Origin: a virus
DNA: 47,345 nucleotides
Strand: one strand, 5' to 3'
IMG/VR virus record: IMGVR_UViG_3300009788_000038
Span: 1 to 47,345 of that record
Below, piece after piece: positions 6,105 through 18,115 of the stretch. The notes beneath the pieces are model-generated. The model was not told the origin of the DNA. It did not search any database and saw nothing but the letters and a program-made list of their open reading frames with translations. Each line of letters begins with the position of its first letter. Within the stretch, counting starts at the first letter, position 1. Position numbers and translations under genes: made by a program.

Positions 6105-7691
6105 TTATTTCCAATGACTTATAGTATGTGTCGGGCGGTCCACCTTATTAGTACCCTTCGGTCTCGGTGATTGTCTCGATGCTGCCAGTAAAAAATAAAG
6201 TGTGCTATGATAGAAATGGTCGTCGCCAAGTTTAATCCACCGAGGTTTCTTCAAGCCAGTATCGGGATGCGTTATGACCGTCTTGGCTGTTCGAGTCATC
6301 TGCCTTGCGTATTCGTTCACTAAAATAGATTCTCTCGGAATCCGAATCTTTGTCTCAGTAAAAGTCGTATGGACTTTATCGCACCATTCGTTTCGATTGA
6401 CCTTGACTATTCCGGTCTTGCCGTCAAACTTCGGCTTACATGGTGACTGCTCGCTGTATTGACAAAGATAACTCATATAAGGCTCAGTCCTTTGAAATTC
6501 CCTTACCCCGTGGTCGTAAGGCCCGGAATCTATCACTGCACTGTAGACGTTCATCTTCAAGGCTATGTCGTGGACTTCGTACAGATTATCATAAATCCCA
6601 ATGTGAGAAATATCATAAGATTCTCTTGAAGTTCGTGTCCCTATGACCACGTGAATCTTCTTACCTATATCCATACCCATAACAGTCTCGCCGGACGATA
6701 CCATTCTGTTATGGTCAGGAGTACACCTTGACAAAACGACCGTCTCGTCCAACTGGCTCTCGGCTTCGGTAGTGGCTATTCCTAAAGTAGAACGCATAAA
6801 CTCCGAGCGCTTTCTGCCTTCGGTATTATTGAACTCGTATATATAATCGTCAAGATTAGCCAAAGGCGAAAGGAGTCCCGACACCCAAAAACCAGCTTCC
6901 CTTCGATCGGGATATTCAGCCTGCCAATCGCCGTCAACTACGAATATCTCCGAATGACAATGAATGCACGCCCTGAACCATCGACCGTCTTTTCGGATAA
7001 TGCTGTTCGGAAAAGTCTCACCCAGACAAGTGTGCCTACCGCACGTTCTGCATTTAATCTGCCATTTCCTCTGGTCGCTTTCTTCGTAGCGAAGGTCGAT
7101 ACCGTAATTTGGAAATGTAGGAGTGCCGAAATTTCTTTCAATACCAAACTTCGACCTCTTTAATCTTTGTTTGGCCTGGTACGCCATATCTAAGTCCATG
7201 AGGTCAAGCTCGTCCCTATCAATTTCATCACAAGGAATCGACCTCAAATTATCAGAGTCTTTCGTGGCAGAGCCGCCTACCTTTTTAGGCTGAGCGCCTA
7301 CCATTACAATCGACCGTCCATTTATCTCCCTGCACATCGTAGTATTGGTATCGCCCTTATTCATTATCCACGGATTGAACTGGAATATCGGGTCGAAAGA
7401 AACTTGGCTTAAACGTTCCACCGCAGTCTTGGTAGGCATCATATAGAGAATGTTCTGTTCGTATCTACGATACTTGCAGGCGTGGACGGCATTCAAAAAG
7501 ATGGCCGTAGTCAGGCACATCTGGGCGCCCTTCTTGCAGTTGGAAATCCTTTTCTCGCAACTGATTATATCGAAAAGATATGCCATTCCCTCAAGAGTAA
7601 ACTGAATACCGTCCCTCAAGAATAAGCGCTTCTTGTTCGCCCATACCAAAGGGTCGTTTGCCATCATTTTTTCTTCTGCCTGTGTTATCAT
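6105..7691 (-). CDS. terL: Terminase large subunit (GpA-like family)
   Basis: The packaging motor ATPase and nuclease. Visible features are a Walker-A-like loop NCKKGAQMCLTTA, the Walker B motif CDEIDRDE, a CRTC...CIHC zinc-binding pair typical of the GpA-type terminases (near the middle), and a C-terminal RNase-H-like nuclease region starting VMGMDIGKKIHV with a later acidic AVIDSGPYDH. I place the start at 7691 (MITQAEEK..., 528 aa) because an open frame extending to 7763 runs through an intrinsic terminator; a start at 7667 (MMANDP) is also possible. No strong ribosome site precedes either. Confidence 0.92.
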   Translation of the reverse strand: MITQAEEKMMANDPLVWANKKRLFLRDGIQFTLEGMAYLFDIISCEKRISNCKKGAQMCLTTAIFLNAVHACKYRRYEQNILYMMPTKTAVERLSQVSFDPIFQFNPWIMNKGDTNTTMCREINGRSIVMVGAQPKKVGGSATKDSDNLRSIPCDEIDRDELDLMDLDMAYQAKQRLKRSKFGIERNFGTPTFPNYGIDLRYEESDQRKWQIKCRTCGRHTCLGETFPNSIIRKDGRWFRACIHCHSEIFVVDGDWQAEYPDRREAGFWVSGLLSPLANLDDYIYEFNNTEGRKRSEFMRSTLGIATTEAESQLDETVVLSRCTPDHNRMVSSGETVMGMDIGKKIHVVIGTRTSRESYDISHIGIYDNLYEVHDIALKMNVYSAVIDSGPYDHGVREFQRTEPYMSYLCQYSEQSPCKPKFDGKTGIVKVNRNEWCDKVHTTFTETKIRIPRESILVNEYARQMTRTAKTVITHPDTGLKKPRWIKLGDDHFYHSTLYFLLAASRQSPRPKGTNKVDRPTHTISHWK

Positions 7692-7703
7692 AATATTTTT
7701 GGG

Positions 7704-7746
7704 CAACAAAAAAAGACCGTGTAAGTGTGTAGCCCTACACGGCCTT
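7704..7746 (-). terminator. Intrinsic terminator before terL
   Basis: On the minus strand, AAGGCCGTGTA pairs with TACACGGTCTT (11 bp with one G-U pair, arms 7736-7746 and 7713-7723), followed by seven U residues. The G-U pair would be an A-C mismatch on the other strand, so leftward RNA is the functional one. It ends the 8182-7805 operon and sits only about 13 bases before the terL start, like other hairpins in this genome. Confidence 0.85.
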
Positions 7747-7804
7747 GATTGTTGCTTTTTCAAGCGAGGGATTTATTCCCCACAGAAAGGTAATTATTTA
7801 ATTG

Positions 7805-12289: not shown

Positions 12290-12499
12290 TTAGCTATTAA
12301 CTTGGTCTTCAATAGAAACACTTACTTTTGTGTCCATAATCCGCCTTAATACTCCTAAAACTTCTCCATAAAGAACAAAAGTTGTTGGGTCGTATTTGTT
12401 GGATATTCGAAGTTCCCCAATCTCGTTCAGGTTAAAAGTAAAGTCACCAAAAGACTCCTCAATGAGCGTTTTGGGCGTATCATATACTAAATCCTTCAT
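12290..12499 (-). CDS. Small unknown protein
   Basis: The 69-residue product from MKDLVYDTPKTLIEESFGDF has alternating strands and a final helix. The ATG at 12499 overlaps the previous TGA (GGATGA), so it is preferred to 12523. No domain is recognised. Confidence 0.55.
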   Translation of the reverse strand: MKDLVYDTPKTLIEESFGDFTFNLNEIGELRISNKYDPTTFVLYGEVLGVLRRIMDTKVSVSIEDQVNS

Positions 12500-12654
12500 C
12501 CTAACTTGAACTCCTTTCGACACTTTTTACATTCTATTACTTCGCCCTTATTGCCTTTTATTTTGTCCACAAACTCATCATACTGACTAACTTCCAAACA
12601 ATGAGGACAAGTCGCTTTTATCTGCCTGACCCAATTATTGCATTTTCTTCTCAT
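12496..12654 (-). CDS. Zinc-ribbon microprotein
   Basis: The 52-residue ORF contains CPHCLEV and CKKCRKEF, a standard CxxC...CxxC ribbon, after a basic N-terminus MRRKCNNWVRQIK. It is the second gene of the leftward 12.9-7.8 kb operon and is preceded by an 8-bp hairpin at 12672-12703. Confidence 0.6.
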   Translation of the reverse strand: MRRKCNNWVRQIKATCPHCLEVSQYDEFVDKIKGNKGEVIECKKCRKEFKLG

Positions 12655-12671
12655 ATTCTTAGACCGACACA

Positions 12672-12703
12672 CAAACGGGGGTATTAAGATTTTAACCCGT
12701 TTG
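12672..12703 (-). promoter_or_regulatory. Leader hairpin
   Basis: CAAACGGG (12672-12679) pairs with CCCGTTTG (12696-12703), eight perfect pairs around a 16-base loop, 18 bases before the zinc-ribbon start at 12654. No U-tract follows, so a regulatory or mRNA-stability role is more likely than termination. Confidence 0.5.
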
Positions 12704-12732
12704 GTATCTTTGTATCCTATAAGTCTATTACT

Positions 12733-12891
12733 TTAGTAAGTACAACAACCAAGCACATTGTAACCGCAATTAAGCGAATTTACCCCACTTGTGCCAGCCA
12801 CAACGCTGGGGGTTCTCTCTTGTACGTTGCTGTCGGTATGGCCTATTGTCATTGTTGGCTTTTCTCGGTCTTTTTTAGATTCAAATACCAT
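12733..12891 (-). CDS. Possible small gene after the tRNA terminator
   Basis: A 52-residue ORF (MVFESKKDREKPTMTIGHTD...) ending in a Cys/Tyr-rich tail (YNVLGCCTY). It fills an otherwise empty stretch downstream of the strong terminator at 12938-12987. There is no clear ribosome site, and no family is recognised, so coding is uncertain. The surrounding 12655-12937 region otherwise holds only the hairpin at 12672 and AT-rich spacer. Confidence 0.35.
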   Translation of the reverse strand: MVFESKKDREKPTMTIGHTDSNVQERTPSVVAGTSGVNSLNCGYNVLGCCTY

Positions 12892-12937
12892 AATCAAGGC
12901 AAAGCCAGTTCGTTCTAACCTTAAACTGTTTATTTAT

Positions 12938-12987
12938 AAAAAAAGCGGCCAGCCTATAATTCAAGGTTAGAACTATAAGCCAGCCGC
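12938..12987 (-). terminator. Strong intrinsic terminator after tRNA
   Basis: On the minus strand an 18-bp stem (arms 12970-12987 and 12945-12962, all paired when G-U is allowed) with a 7-base loop is followed by seven U residues. Four pairs are G-U that would be A-C mismatches on the plus strand, showing leftward RNA is selected. It lies 6 bases after the tRNA and ends the structured-RNA/tRNA unit. Confidence 0.93.
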
Positions 12988-12992
12988 AATAA

Positions 12993-13064
12993 TAGCAGAG
13001 ACAGGAGTCGAACCTGTAATCTCCTGCTTATGAGGCAGGCAAGTTACCATTACTCTACTCTGCG
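12993..13064 (-). tRNA. tRNA with CAU anticodon (Met, or Ile2)
   Basis: The minus strand folds as a full tRNA: D stem GAGT/ACTT, anticodon stem CCTGC/GCAGG with loop CTCATAA (anticodon CAU), 5-base variable loop, and T arm ACAGG-TTCGACT-CCTGT. The acceptor pairs 6 of 7, with an unpaired 1-72 position (C-U). Bacterial initiator tRNA also has an unpaired 1-72 position, but this one lacks the three G-C pairs of an initiator anticodon stem. CCA is not encoded. It may read AUG, or AUA if its C34 is modified. Confidence 0.9.
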
Positions 13065-13099
13065 ATATATTTATCATATCAGCCAATCCTTAACGTGCT

Positions 13100-13430
13100 A
13101 ATATGTTTAATTTTGGCGGCGTGGTAAGGTTCGACACTTACATTTCCAAGGTTTCACGCCGAGCGTTTTCTCTTAAACTACGCGCCATATTTTTATCATA
13201 CTTGCTTACTGCAAATATGTTCGTATTCGATGTCGCTGATTTATTGTTCAAGCCCAGCGACACAAGCTCTTTAATATTTAGTGCTGCCAGTGATAACGGC
13301 TAAGCCACGTGTCCTTATAGGATATTCACTTAAATCTGTTAACGGTTATAACTCCAGCAGCACCATCAATACTCGGCTATCCCAATTAGGTAATGCCGAG
13401 GCTCGACAGCTATATACTGCCGAGGATGTA
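13100..13430 (-). ncRNA. Candidate structured RNA of unknown class
   Basis: Between a leftward promoter (13436-13464) and the tRNA, the minus strand has no convincing gene but many strong helices: 13417-13424/13402-13409 (8 bp), 13395-13400/13372-13377 (6 bp), a long-range 13357-13363/13281-13287 (7 bp), 13255-13262/13231-13238 (8 bp perfect), and a nested pair 13155-13160/13118-13123 (6 bp) around 13137-13141/13124-13128 (5 bp). Large structured RNAs next to tRNAs are known in phages (GOLLD, ROOL), but I cannot match this one to either. Confidence 0.55.
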
Positions 13431-13435
13431 AATGT

Positions 13436-13464
13436 ATTAAATCACAAAAACCTCAATTTGTCAA
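13436..13464 (-). promoter_or_regulatory. Leftward sigma70-type promoter
   Basis: TTGACA (13464-13459) and TTTAAT (13441-13436) are separated by exactly 17 bases. The predicted start near 13429 would give a transcript covering the structured region and tRNA, ending at the terminator 12938-12987. Confidence 0.75.
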
Positions 13465-13550
13465 TAAAAATAAATAAAAGTTTTTTGCTCCATAACCCTA
13501 TTTAATGCCGATACTTATAAAATAGTCGATGTCACTACCTGATTTTTCTA

Positions 13551-13579
13551 TTGACAAGATTAAAGATTTCGGGTAGAAT
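13551..13579 (+). promoter_or_regulatory. Rightward near-consensus sigma70 promoter
   Basis: TTGACA (13551-13556) and TAGAAT (13574-13579) with a 17-base spacer, the best promoter in the window along with 30538-30566. Transcription would begin near 13586, 38 bases before the first gene of the rightward cluster. It stands back to back with the leftward promoter at 13436-13464. Confidence 0.88.
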
Positions 13580-15283: not shown

Positions 15284-15541
15284 ATGAAATTTCAAATGGG
15301 AGACATTGAAACTCAAGTTGTATGTTATAAAGATGGGACAGTTGCTCATCGGCGACAACCAATTTCTCATCAACCCCAATTCTCTTTTGAACAATTAACA
15401 GAGCTTGTCCGGCGTTGGAATAGCTATGAGGATTTATTGGCAACGTGTGAATATACTCAAAGATTGCTTCTTAAAGGTTTCGGCCAACAAACTCACGCTG
15501 TAGCAATGCTTGAAGCCGCAATCAAGCAAGCAACCTCTTGA
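15284..15541 (+). CDS. Unknown protein, end of rightward cluster
   Basis: The 85-residue protein (MKFQMGDIETQVVCYKDGTV...) has a beta-rich first half and a helical second half (EQLTELVRRWNSYEDLLATC). AGGAG is 7 bases before the ATG at 15284; an ATG at 15278 is too close to it. Its 3' end overlaps the convergent gene at 15522 by 20 bases, with no terminator visible between them. Confidence 0.65.
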   Translation: MKFQMGDIETQVVCYKDGTVAHRRQPISHQPQFSFEQLTELVRRWNSYEDLLATCEYTQRLLLKGFGQQTHAVAMLEAAIKQATS

Positions 15542-16187
15542 GATTTCCTTTGAGCTTTACTTGAGTTCTTTTCTGTAACGTCTGAACCAAACATCTCACC
15601 TTATCTTTTGACGGCTCCGGTAAGTTGTGACCTTTGCTATCCGCTCCGATATTGACCCATATTGGATTTGCTAAAATGATAAGGTCAACTAAATCATCTA
15701 AGTCAAAATCGAAGATAGGCTCTATCGTTACCATCGTCTCAAAATCCTTGTAGCTCAATTCAGCTAAGGCCATAGCCCTTTGCGAAACTGGTGGAGCTTT
15801 GGATTCTACTATGTCCCGATTCGTTTCAATGGTAGTGCCAAAAAGAACTTTATCTGGATAATGGCCAAAGAAGTCTAAGAATCTCTTAGGATTTTTGCTT
15901 TGGAGTAAATATCTGTTTTTAGGATATAGGGTTAGTTGGCACAAAACCTCCTCTACCCAATCAGCTGGAACATCGTCAGCAAACAAATCTATCGTATGGC
16001 CTACGAAGATAAAGTTTCCTTCGCTGAGATTTGTTTCCAAATCTCTCTCGTCAATATGAAGCGGCGGCTGTTCGCCCCATTTTTTCATATAACAATAAGA
16101 GCAATCGTGACTACATTTTCCTCGAATCGGACTCCATGTATGGCTTACGAACTCGTACATATTACCTTTTTGCTTTTTTAGGGGCAT
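15522..16187 (-). CDS. Radical-SAM-like phage Gp37/Gp68 (DUF5131) protein
   Basis: The 221-residue protein has HTWSPIRGKCSHDCSYCYMKKW in its first 40 residues; the CSHDCSYC cysteines match the CxxxCxxC 4Fe-4S site of radical SAM enzymes. Further family segments are IFVGHTIDLFADDVP, LQSKNPKRFLDF, LFGTTIETNRD and VTIEPIFDFD. Proteins of this family occur in many phages; the reaction is unknown. Length is near that of shorter family members. AAGGAGAAAGAA precedes the ATG at 16187, which overlaps the previous stop. Confidence 0.85.
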   Translation of the reverse strand: MPLKKQKGNMYEFVSHTWSPIRGKCSHDCSYCYMKKWGEQPPLHIDERDLETNLSEGNFIFVGHTIDLFADDVPADWVEEVLCQLTLYPKNRYLLQSKNPKRFLDFFGHYPDKVLFGTTIETNRDIVESKAPPVSQRAMALAELSYKDFETMVTIEPIFDFDLDDLVDLIILANPIWVNIGADSKGHNLPEPSKDKVRCLVQTLQKRTQVKLKGNLKRLLA

Positions 16188-17484: not shown

Positions 17485-17994
17485 TCAGATTACTTTCTTT
17501 CTCTTGTGGAGTTTTTTATGACATTTAGCGCAAGTCGGCAAAACATCCAACCAATGCTCTTTTTCATATCCCTTGTGATGGTGATATTGCGTTGCTGGAT
17601 GGTTGCTATATGAACATTGTAGAGTATCAGGGCGAGGCATTTTGCCAGCACGAACAGCAATATTGACAGTAGCCCAAGCCTTCTGTAATTCGGGATGTTG
17701 GGTGCAATATCGCTTTAGTGTATTCTTATATTTCTCCGTTTGCCGATGTCGTTTTTTTGCAATTGCATACCTTCCTGATTGATGATAGTATTGTCGGTAA
17801 AGTTGCTGATAAATTCTTGCGGATTCTTGTTGTTGGTATTTTTTTTGGCGATTCTTAACAATTTCAAGGCTTTGGTATTTTCTGGCATAAGCCTTTTGGC
17901 AAACTTTACACTCGTTGAAATAACCATCTTTGGAATGATTTTTGTAAAACTCAGAAAGTGCCTTTGTTTGCAAACAAATCCGACAGGTCTTCAT
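17485..17994 (-). CDS. HNH endonuclease (free-standing, homing-type)
   Basis: The 169-residue protein begins MKTCRICLQTKALSEFYKN with a CxxC...CxxC finger (residues 4-36), has a long basic helical linker with KKYQQQESARIYQ, and ends with an HNH motif YHHHKGYEKEHWLDVLP followed by CAKCHKKLH. It probably nicks or cuts DNA as a mobile endonuclease. The start at 17994 follows AGAGGTATTAAA; the frame open to 18099 runs through a structured leader. It is a paralogue of 29552-30055. Confidence 0.85.
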   Translation of the reverse strand: MKTCRICLQTKALSEFYKNHSKDGYFNECKVCQKAYARKYQSLEIVKNRQKKYQQQESARIYQQLYRQYYHQSGRYAIAKKRHRQTEKYKNTLKRYCTQHPELQKAWATVNIAVRAGKMPRPDTLQCSYSNHPATQYHHHKGYEKEHWLDVLPTCAKCHKKLHKRKKVI

Positions 17995-18028
17995 TTTAAT
18001 ACCTCTCGTAGTATTTCTCGATAATATT

Positions 18029-18083
18029 GTGCAGAAGGGCGGTTCGAGATGCACCGCCTTTTCGGGGGCTACCCTATCTGCAC
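18029..18083 (-). promoter_or_regulatory. Three-way-junction leader RNA of the HNH gene
   Basis: GTGCAGA (18029-18035) pairs with TCTGCAC (18077-18083), closing two inner hairpins, GGCGGT/ACCGCC (18038-18043/18053-18058) and GGG/CCC (about 18065-18074). The predicted transcription start of the promoter at 18087-18115 falls at its 5' end, and the HNH ribosome site follows 30 bases later, so it is a compact 5' UTR fold. Confidence 0.6.
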
Positions 18084-18086
18084 AGT

Positions 18087-18115
18087 ATCGTAACATCATA
18101 TCTTAGAACTTTCAA
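18087..18115 (-). promoter_or_regulatory. Promoter for HNH gene
   Basis: TTGAAA (18115-18110) and TACGAT (18092-18087) with a 17-base spacer on the minus strand. The -10 is imperfect, but its spacing to the structured leader (first transcribed base near 18080) supports it. Confidence 0.5.

Follow-up and report, generated by a model that had tools for sequence, protein, structure and literature searches.

A structured RNA upstream of the packaging genes in six diverse phages, very probably an undescribed family

GOLLD and ROOL are large, conserved, structured phage RNAs that occur beside tRNAs and whose function is unknown. In the lambda pR'-6S RNA-tR' unit, a strong promoter is followed by a short leader and an intrinsic terminator, and the late operon is expressed by antitermination. 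The tRNA is located in a variable linker in some GOLLD members, ROOL is often found near tRNA islands, and OLE dimerises partly through a palindromic loop (PMC12286853). For the kissing loops OLE L9.3 and GOLLD L21a, covariation of the palindrome was used as a signature (PMC12286853). In HK022, the putRNA works on RNA polymerase in cis, suppressing pausing and termination (PMC9378689). An abundant, orf-less noncoding RNA of about 800 nt from ICP1 was likened to GOLLD and ROOL (PMC7567579).

The DNA studied here (the window) is a stretch of 47,345 nucleotides, IMG/VR virus record IMGVR_UViG_3300009788_000038. An earlier note had described in it a unit comprising a promoter, a structured stretch without a convincing gene, a CAU tRNA and a terminator, and all of these elements were confirmed. 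A sigma70-type promoter, TTGACA-17-TTTAAT, was read from the sequence at exactly 13436-13464(-). The tRNA-Met(CAU) at 12992-13065(-) was identified by ARAGORN and by RF00005 (64.1 bits, above the cut-off), and the terminator was found as an 18-pair stem followed by U7, with the hairpin at 12945-12987(-). The gene-free stretch was about 370 nt long and folded strongly (z -3.9 to -4.4); for 13066-13430(-), the minimum free energy was -107.9 kcal/mol, which was below 100 of 100 dinucleotide shuffles (z -3.86). Promoter, folded region, tRNA and the terminator-like hairpin with its U-tract (S1-U7) are all on the minus strand. Folding placed two hairpins at the 5' end, P0 (CUCGGCAG..CUGUCGAG; 13402-13424(-)) and a second one at 13372-13400(-). 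The perfect 8-bp helix that had been claimed at 13231-13262 (UGUCGCUG/CAGCGACA) is present in the sequence but is not a conserved element, the linker sequence there not being shared by the homologues. Likewise, the nested helices claimed at 13118-13160 are present but lie in the non-conserved linker and overlap a degenerate tRNA-like element. The 3' boundary, which had been set at the terminator, was too short, since paired and conserved sequence extends to about 12663.

The claim that the RNA belongs to no known class held. When Rfam was searched at gathering and permissive thresholds, the tRNA was the only match in the region, and when 12500-13500 was compared with all 4227 families by cmscan (E up to 10), no RNA class but the tRNA appeared, and no ROOL. 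A match to SpF41 (30 bits) was rejected because it consisted of just the tRNA plus the terminator. The parallel with GOLLD and ROOL that had been drawn was not borne out as homology in covariance-model searches (RF02032, RF03087), and even with E allowed up to 10, the GOLLD model (RF02032) matched none of 10 related phage records. A literature search, of incomplete coverage, found no description of the RNA family. We rate it as a new family among the structured phage RNAs beside tRNAs, a kind that is already known.

The RNA resembles GOLLD (RF02032) in being a phage RNA beside or around tRNAs, in placing the tRNA of some members within a variable linker and in its palindromic covariation of the kissing-loop type (PMC12286853). 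It differs from GOLLD in that its 5' domain is less than half the size, it precedes packaging genes, and it has a predicted pseudoknot (S1/S2) across a terminator-like hairpin. Like ROOL (RF03087) and OLE, it is a structured phage or bacterial RNA, although it is unlike both in architecture. With the HK022 putRNA it shares the arrangement of a nascent phage RNA with a promoter before it and terminators after it (PMC9378689). However, putRNA is about 70 nt long, has two stem-loops and belongs to early genes, whereas the core of the new RNA forms either a rod or a three-way junction, contains a palindrome in its bulge and belongs to late genes; the two-stem-loop architecture was not found in the new core, and homology is not claimed. 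The ICP1 RNA is similar in being a large, orf-less phage transcript, but it precedes a lysis cluster in a phage without tRNAs.

A homologue search, which the earlier note had proposed, yielded five diverged homologues with compensatory changes in other IMG/VR phages, giving a family of six with the window; the core helix P3, a palindrome and the hairpin P4 covary. One homologue was found without any RNA pattern: G021 (IMGVR 3300028610_000454; IMGVR_UViG_3300028610_000454) was recovered as a relative via its terminase, and its diverged copy has the same promoter, 5' hairpin, core and P4 and an identical tRNA, with a linker that could not be aligned. At the two ends of the G021 contig, which is about 46.6 kb long, 144 nt are repeated exactly, so that it is probably a complete circular genome. 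The other four homologues, L047, L060, L184 and L205, were found by pattern scans in which chance matches in coding genes were set aside; since four of the five were found through conserved letters, the set is biased towards invariance of helix P1. The coding-gene matches (among L039-L056, L181-L183, most of L184-L209 and, in genome_contigs, L061-L180) were rejected because they lacked P2/P3 and the tail; among the matches listed for the genome_contigs scan, GC-rich chance matches in coding sequence were found. A 26-nt match in L005 was also rejected as a chance match in coding sequence. One further record, IMGVR 3300024265_000262, carries DNA nearly identical to the window.

Promoter, core and S1-U7 were present in all six phages, always in this order. 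A TTGACA-type promoter occupies the same place in the homologues, the L060 version being TTGCAA, and a hairpin is found at the position of P0 in every member, its sequence differing among phages. In each of the six, the 5' domain had a more stable fold than its shuffles (z -1.7 to -4.4). A covariance model, R1, built from the six cores scored 79-96 bits in these phages, with one copy per genome (93.5 bits for the window core), and also matched L002, whose DNA is that of the window. Among the other records searched, none matched R1 convincingly, one having an E of 0.3. There was also no match in 398, 395 and 398 genomes of three phyla, an uninformative result without a known host. Searches of INPHARED and PLSDB by blastn revealed no sequence related to the core or to a conserved 3' block, and the RNA was absent from the first relatives of a neighbouring 98-aa protein, save for one identical copy. 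The region is noncoding, since the homologous cores (77-101 nt) differ in length by non-multiples of three and contain 1-nt indels. Stops are also present in the homologous cores, the reading frame is not kept, and a frame-conservation test among the homologues was negative. The refuting conditions named in the earlier note, as far as they could be checked, left its proposal standing. It may be concluded with high confidence that this is an undescribed structured RNA family common to six diverse phages that otherwise share little.

An upstream DNA element, GTAGTGACAT (GTRGTGACAT; 13529-13538(-)), was found before the promoter in the window, G021, L047 and L060. It was not found upstream of the L205 promoter, and the L184 contig is too short to tell. 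In the window, a divergent gene is located upstream of the RNA promoter, and a plus-strand promoter (13551-13579) is near the element. Judged by its sequence and its place between divergent promoters, GTRGTGACAT is a candidate binding site for a phage regulator.

The conserved core (13280-13364(-)) was delimited by the six-homologue alignment, RNAalifold, pair counts and R1. It is about 60-85 nt long and is made up of P1, P3 and, between them, a bulge or loop that contains a palindrome of 6 nt; the adjoining core tail AAAUAUUAAA (13270-13279(-)) is conserved in the alignment. Because a good tRNA is present in only three of the six phages, the core is the constant part of the unit. RNAalifold gave a rod composed of P1 (GGUGCUGCUGG/CUGGCAGCACU; 13357-13364/13280-13287(-)), a 9-nt bulge and P3 (13336-13343/13292-13299(-)), and both helices were also recovered in pair counts. 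Alternatively, the core would fold as a three-way junction that includes a short P2 (GG/CC) and a loop of 8 nt. P3 is mostly RRUAACAG/CUGUUAYY, its pair 30-85 being G-C, A-U or G-U among the homologues, and double compensatory changes were seen in P3 and in the palindrome. At columns 17-89 and 18-88, G-U pairs that exist on the minus strand only are conserved in all six.

The palindrome, recognised in pair counts and located between P1 and P3 at 13346-13351(-), is UUAUAA in the window, UUGCAA in G021 and UCGCGA in the four others. Of its three self-pairs, two differ on both sides among the phages, and all three stay intact. The covariation score with the palindrome pairs was 0.197, compared with 0.139 in shuffles, and 4 of 500 shuffles scored as high; without these pairs, the score was not exceptional. 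Since adjacent nucleotides are unable to pair within one strand, a two-molecule contact is the natural reading, in line with the argument made for OLE and GOLLD (PMC12286853). With three variants only, the palindrome is suggestive, but not proof, of a contact between two RNA molecules.

Over its 74 nt, the tRNA-Met(CAU) shows no difference between the window, G021 and L184, yet the L184 terminase is only 34% identical. This tRNA is initiator-like in its 1:72 C-U mismatch and A11-U24 and lacks the three anticodon-stem G-C pairs. A degenerate tRNA-like element was detected at about 13114-13187(-) (RF00005, 21.1 bits, below the cut-off). L060 has no good tRNA and two tRNA-like matches (34 and 24 bits), the first of which is homologous to the window element (score 68, reached by 0 of 1000 shuffles). 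By eye, the elements of the window and L060 have an encoded CCA, no D-loop GG and an 8-nt T-loop. In L047 and L205, the tRNA is absent. P4-type hairpins, helices of about 9 bp with compensatory changes among homologues, were found in the window at 13197-13219(-) (first copy, CAUAUUUGC/GCAAGUAUG) and, just 5' of the tRNA, at 13075-13105(-) (CAUAUUAGC/GCUGAUAUG). Since two of the six phages have no tRNA and L060 has only degenerate elements, the tRNA is optional, and this distribution indicates that it is cargo of the unit, not its definition. Of the earlier proposal of a structured RNA cotranscribed with the tRNA, the RNA and the shared unit were therefore supported, but a constant tRNA was not. 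A putative RNase P cut between the structured RNA and the tRNA is plausible.

Hairpin S1 (12945-12987(-); loop 12959-12973) is followed by the U7 tract at 12938-12944(-), and S1 with a U-tract is present in all six phages. The entire S1 loop of the window is complementary to the 3' strand S2, GUUUAAGGUUAGAAC (12912-12926(-)), over 15 bp counting G-U; in the other five phages, the complementarity covers 9-12 nt. The complement is located 18-46 nt beyond S1 in every phage, and its sequence is phage-specific. Watson-Crick runs were 8-11 for a loop and its own S2, compared with 4-7 (one 8) across phages, and the complementarity had p of 3e-4 to 0.023 in each case. This specificity amounts to large-scale compensatory change. 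The phage-specific match implies either that transcripts reading across S1 are of importance or that the pair forms a pseudoknot in a longer RNA. Because the pairing would form too late, it would have no effect on termination at S1 itself. No promoter for a second transcript was found by eye between S1 and S2.

Beyond S2, a 3' block conserved in the window, L060, L047 and L205, and thus common to four of the six phages, was aligned at 12663-12871(-); it stops just short of the first ORF. It includes CUAAAAAAGACC, CUAAAGUAAUA, CCGACAGCAACGUACA..GCGUUGUGG (12798-12836(-)) and a segment E3, CAAACGGG..CCCGUUUGUGUGUCGGU (12663-12703(-)). By eye, one of its helices changes from GGCCA/UGGCU to ACCCA/UGGGU. 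The block alone folded no better than shuffles in five of six phages. Its sequence is absent from G021 and L184, which have other sequence there. After S2, G021 (L026, about 200-320) has strong helices (CAACAACGGAAUA/UAUUCCGUUGUUG and GUCUAAC/GUUAGAC; z -2.7) that do not resemble the 3' block found elsewhere in the family.

In each of the six phages, terminase genes lie downstream of the unit and on its strand, at a distance of 1 to about 6 kb. The downstream gene is the phrog_675 terminase large subunit in the window, G021, L184 and L205 and the phrog_51 terminase small subunit in L047 and L060. With two types of packaging module, the RNA keeps its position before packaging while the genes differ. 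In the window, the first ORF after the RNA (12496-12654(-)) encodes about 52 aa with Zn-ribbon-like cysteines, noted by eye, and same-strand genes run from it to the large subunit at 6105-7763(-). It is the packaging operon, rather than an array of tRNAs, that regularly adjoins the RNA. A promoter, a leader and a terminator placed immediately before same-strand packaging genes reproduce the layout of the lambda pR' type, in which the late operon follows. The lambda late leader differs in having no tRNA or comparable conserved fold, and no Q-like protein was identified here. A DUF5131 (phrog_2045) gene is near the RNA in the window (15522-16187(-)) and in L047 (9202-9885(-)), which have different terminases. 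An int-alpA RNA match (RF02996, 42.1 bits, above the cut-off) at 18016-18084(-) overlaps the start of an endonuclease VII-like ORF (17485-18099).

The family is well supported; for its function, we tentatively infer a regulatory leader of the late or packaging operon that would control readthrough, a reading that we give somewhat less than even confidence. RNA polymerase would start at the strong promoter, and P0, the core and P4 would fold on the nascent RNA. By its sequence, the shape of S1 fits a putative intrinsic terminator, and most transcripts would stop at S1-U7, releasing the 5' domain plus, where present, a pre-tRNA, which would be freed by RNase P and 3'-processing; the tRNA would be an optional cargo of the leader. 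A fraction would read through S1 by action of the core in cis on the polymerase and/or of a phage regulator, giving an RNA that includes S2 and the 3' block as well as the genes for terminase and structural proteins. In this readthrough RNA, the S1 loop and S2 would form a pseudoknot, which may serve to protect or label the late mRNA at its 5' end. Points against the model are that the 3' block is weakly folded and not shared by G021 and L184 and that the tRNA is not constant.

The main rival, considered rather unlikely, is a structured RNA that would act in trans and associate with itself, in the manner of GOLLD, ROOL or OLE. Its palindromic loop would produce homodimers or higher multimers, the linker holding the tRNA would be variable, and a place ahead of the packaging genes would merely give late, abundant expression. 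A palindrome kept through two-sided changes, as in OLE L9.3 and GOLLD L21a (PMC12286853), is consistent with this explanation, as are the long RNA spanning the tRNA and the two homologues that keep the RNA without a tRNA. However, no more than three palindrome variants are known, the self-duplex of the window's UUAUAA is weak (-0.6 kcal/mol, compared with -7.9 kcal/mol for UCGCGA), neither GOLLD nor another Rfam family matched, and folding of the 3' block is weak. Neither a trans-acting RNA nor the leader model explains what the S1/S2 pairing does. An unlikely, more far-reaching reading is a new class of phage RNAs of large size (about 750-800 nt) that would self-associate via the covarying palindrome, with an embedded tRNA and tRNA-like elements, a pseudoknot across their own terminator hairpin, and tRNA release coupled to control of the packaging operon.

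It is improbable that the unit is a tRNA-processing leader with a decayed tRNA array whose sole product is the tRNA. The degenerate elements at 13114-13187 and in L060, the P4 hairpins preceding each tRNA or tRNA-like element and the 100% identical tRNA in three phages would agree with such an origin, but L047 and L205 keep promoter, core, P4 and S1 without a tRNA, the most conserved part is the core, which is not tRNA-like, and the S1/S2 covariation is given no role. Even less probable is a DNA-level element, namely a packaging or recombination site or an operator cluster whose inverted repeats merely look like RNA. Its location upstream of the terminase in six of six phages, the nearby conserved GTRGTGACAT and the fact that S1/S2 and the palindrome are inverted repeats could be read in this way; nevertheless, several of the conserved pairs exist as G-U only on the minus strand, each inverted repeat differs in sequence, unlike a protein site, and a promoter and a U-tract flank the region.

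The new family is separate from GOLLD and ROOL, is of a size that can be synthesised and has a fixed place heading the packaging genes. It offers a testable palindromic contact and a puzzle, a terminator loop that is predicted to pair beyond the terminator. Control of late transcription by such RNAs and the generality of self-pairing loops in phage RNAs can now be tested.
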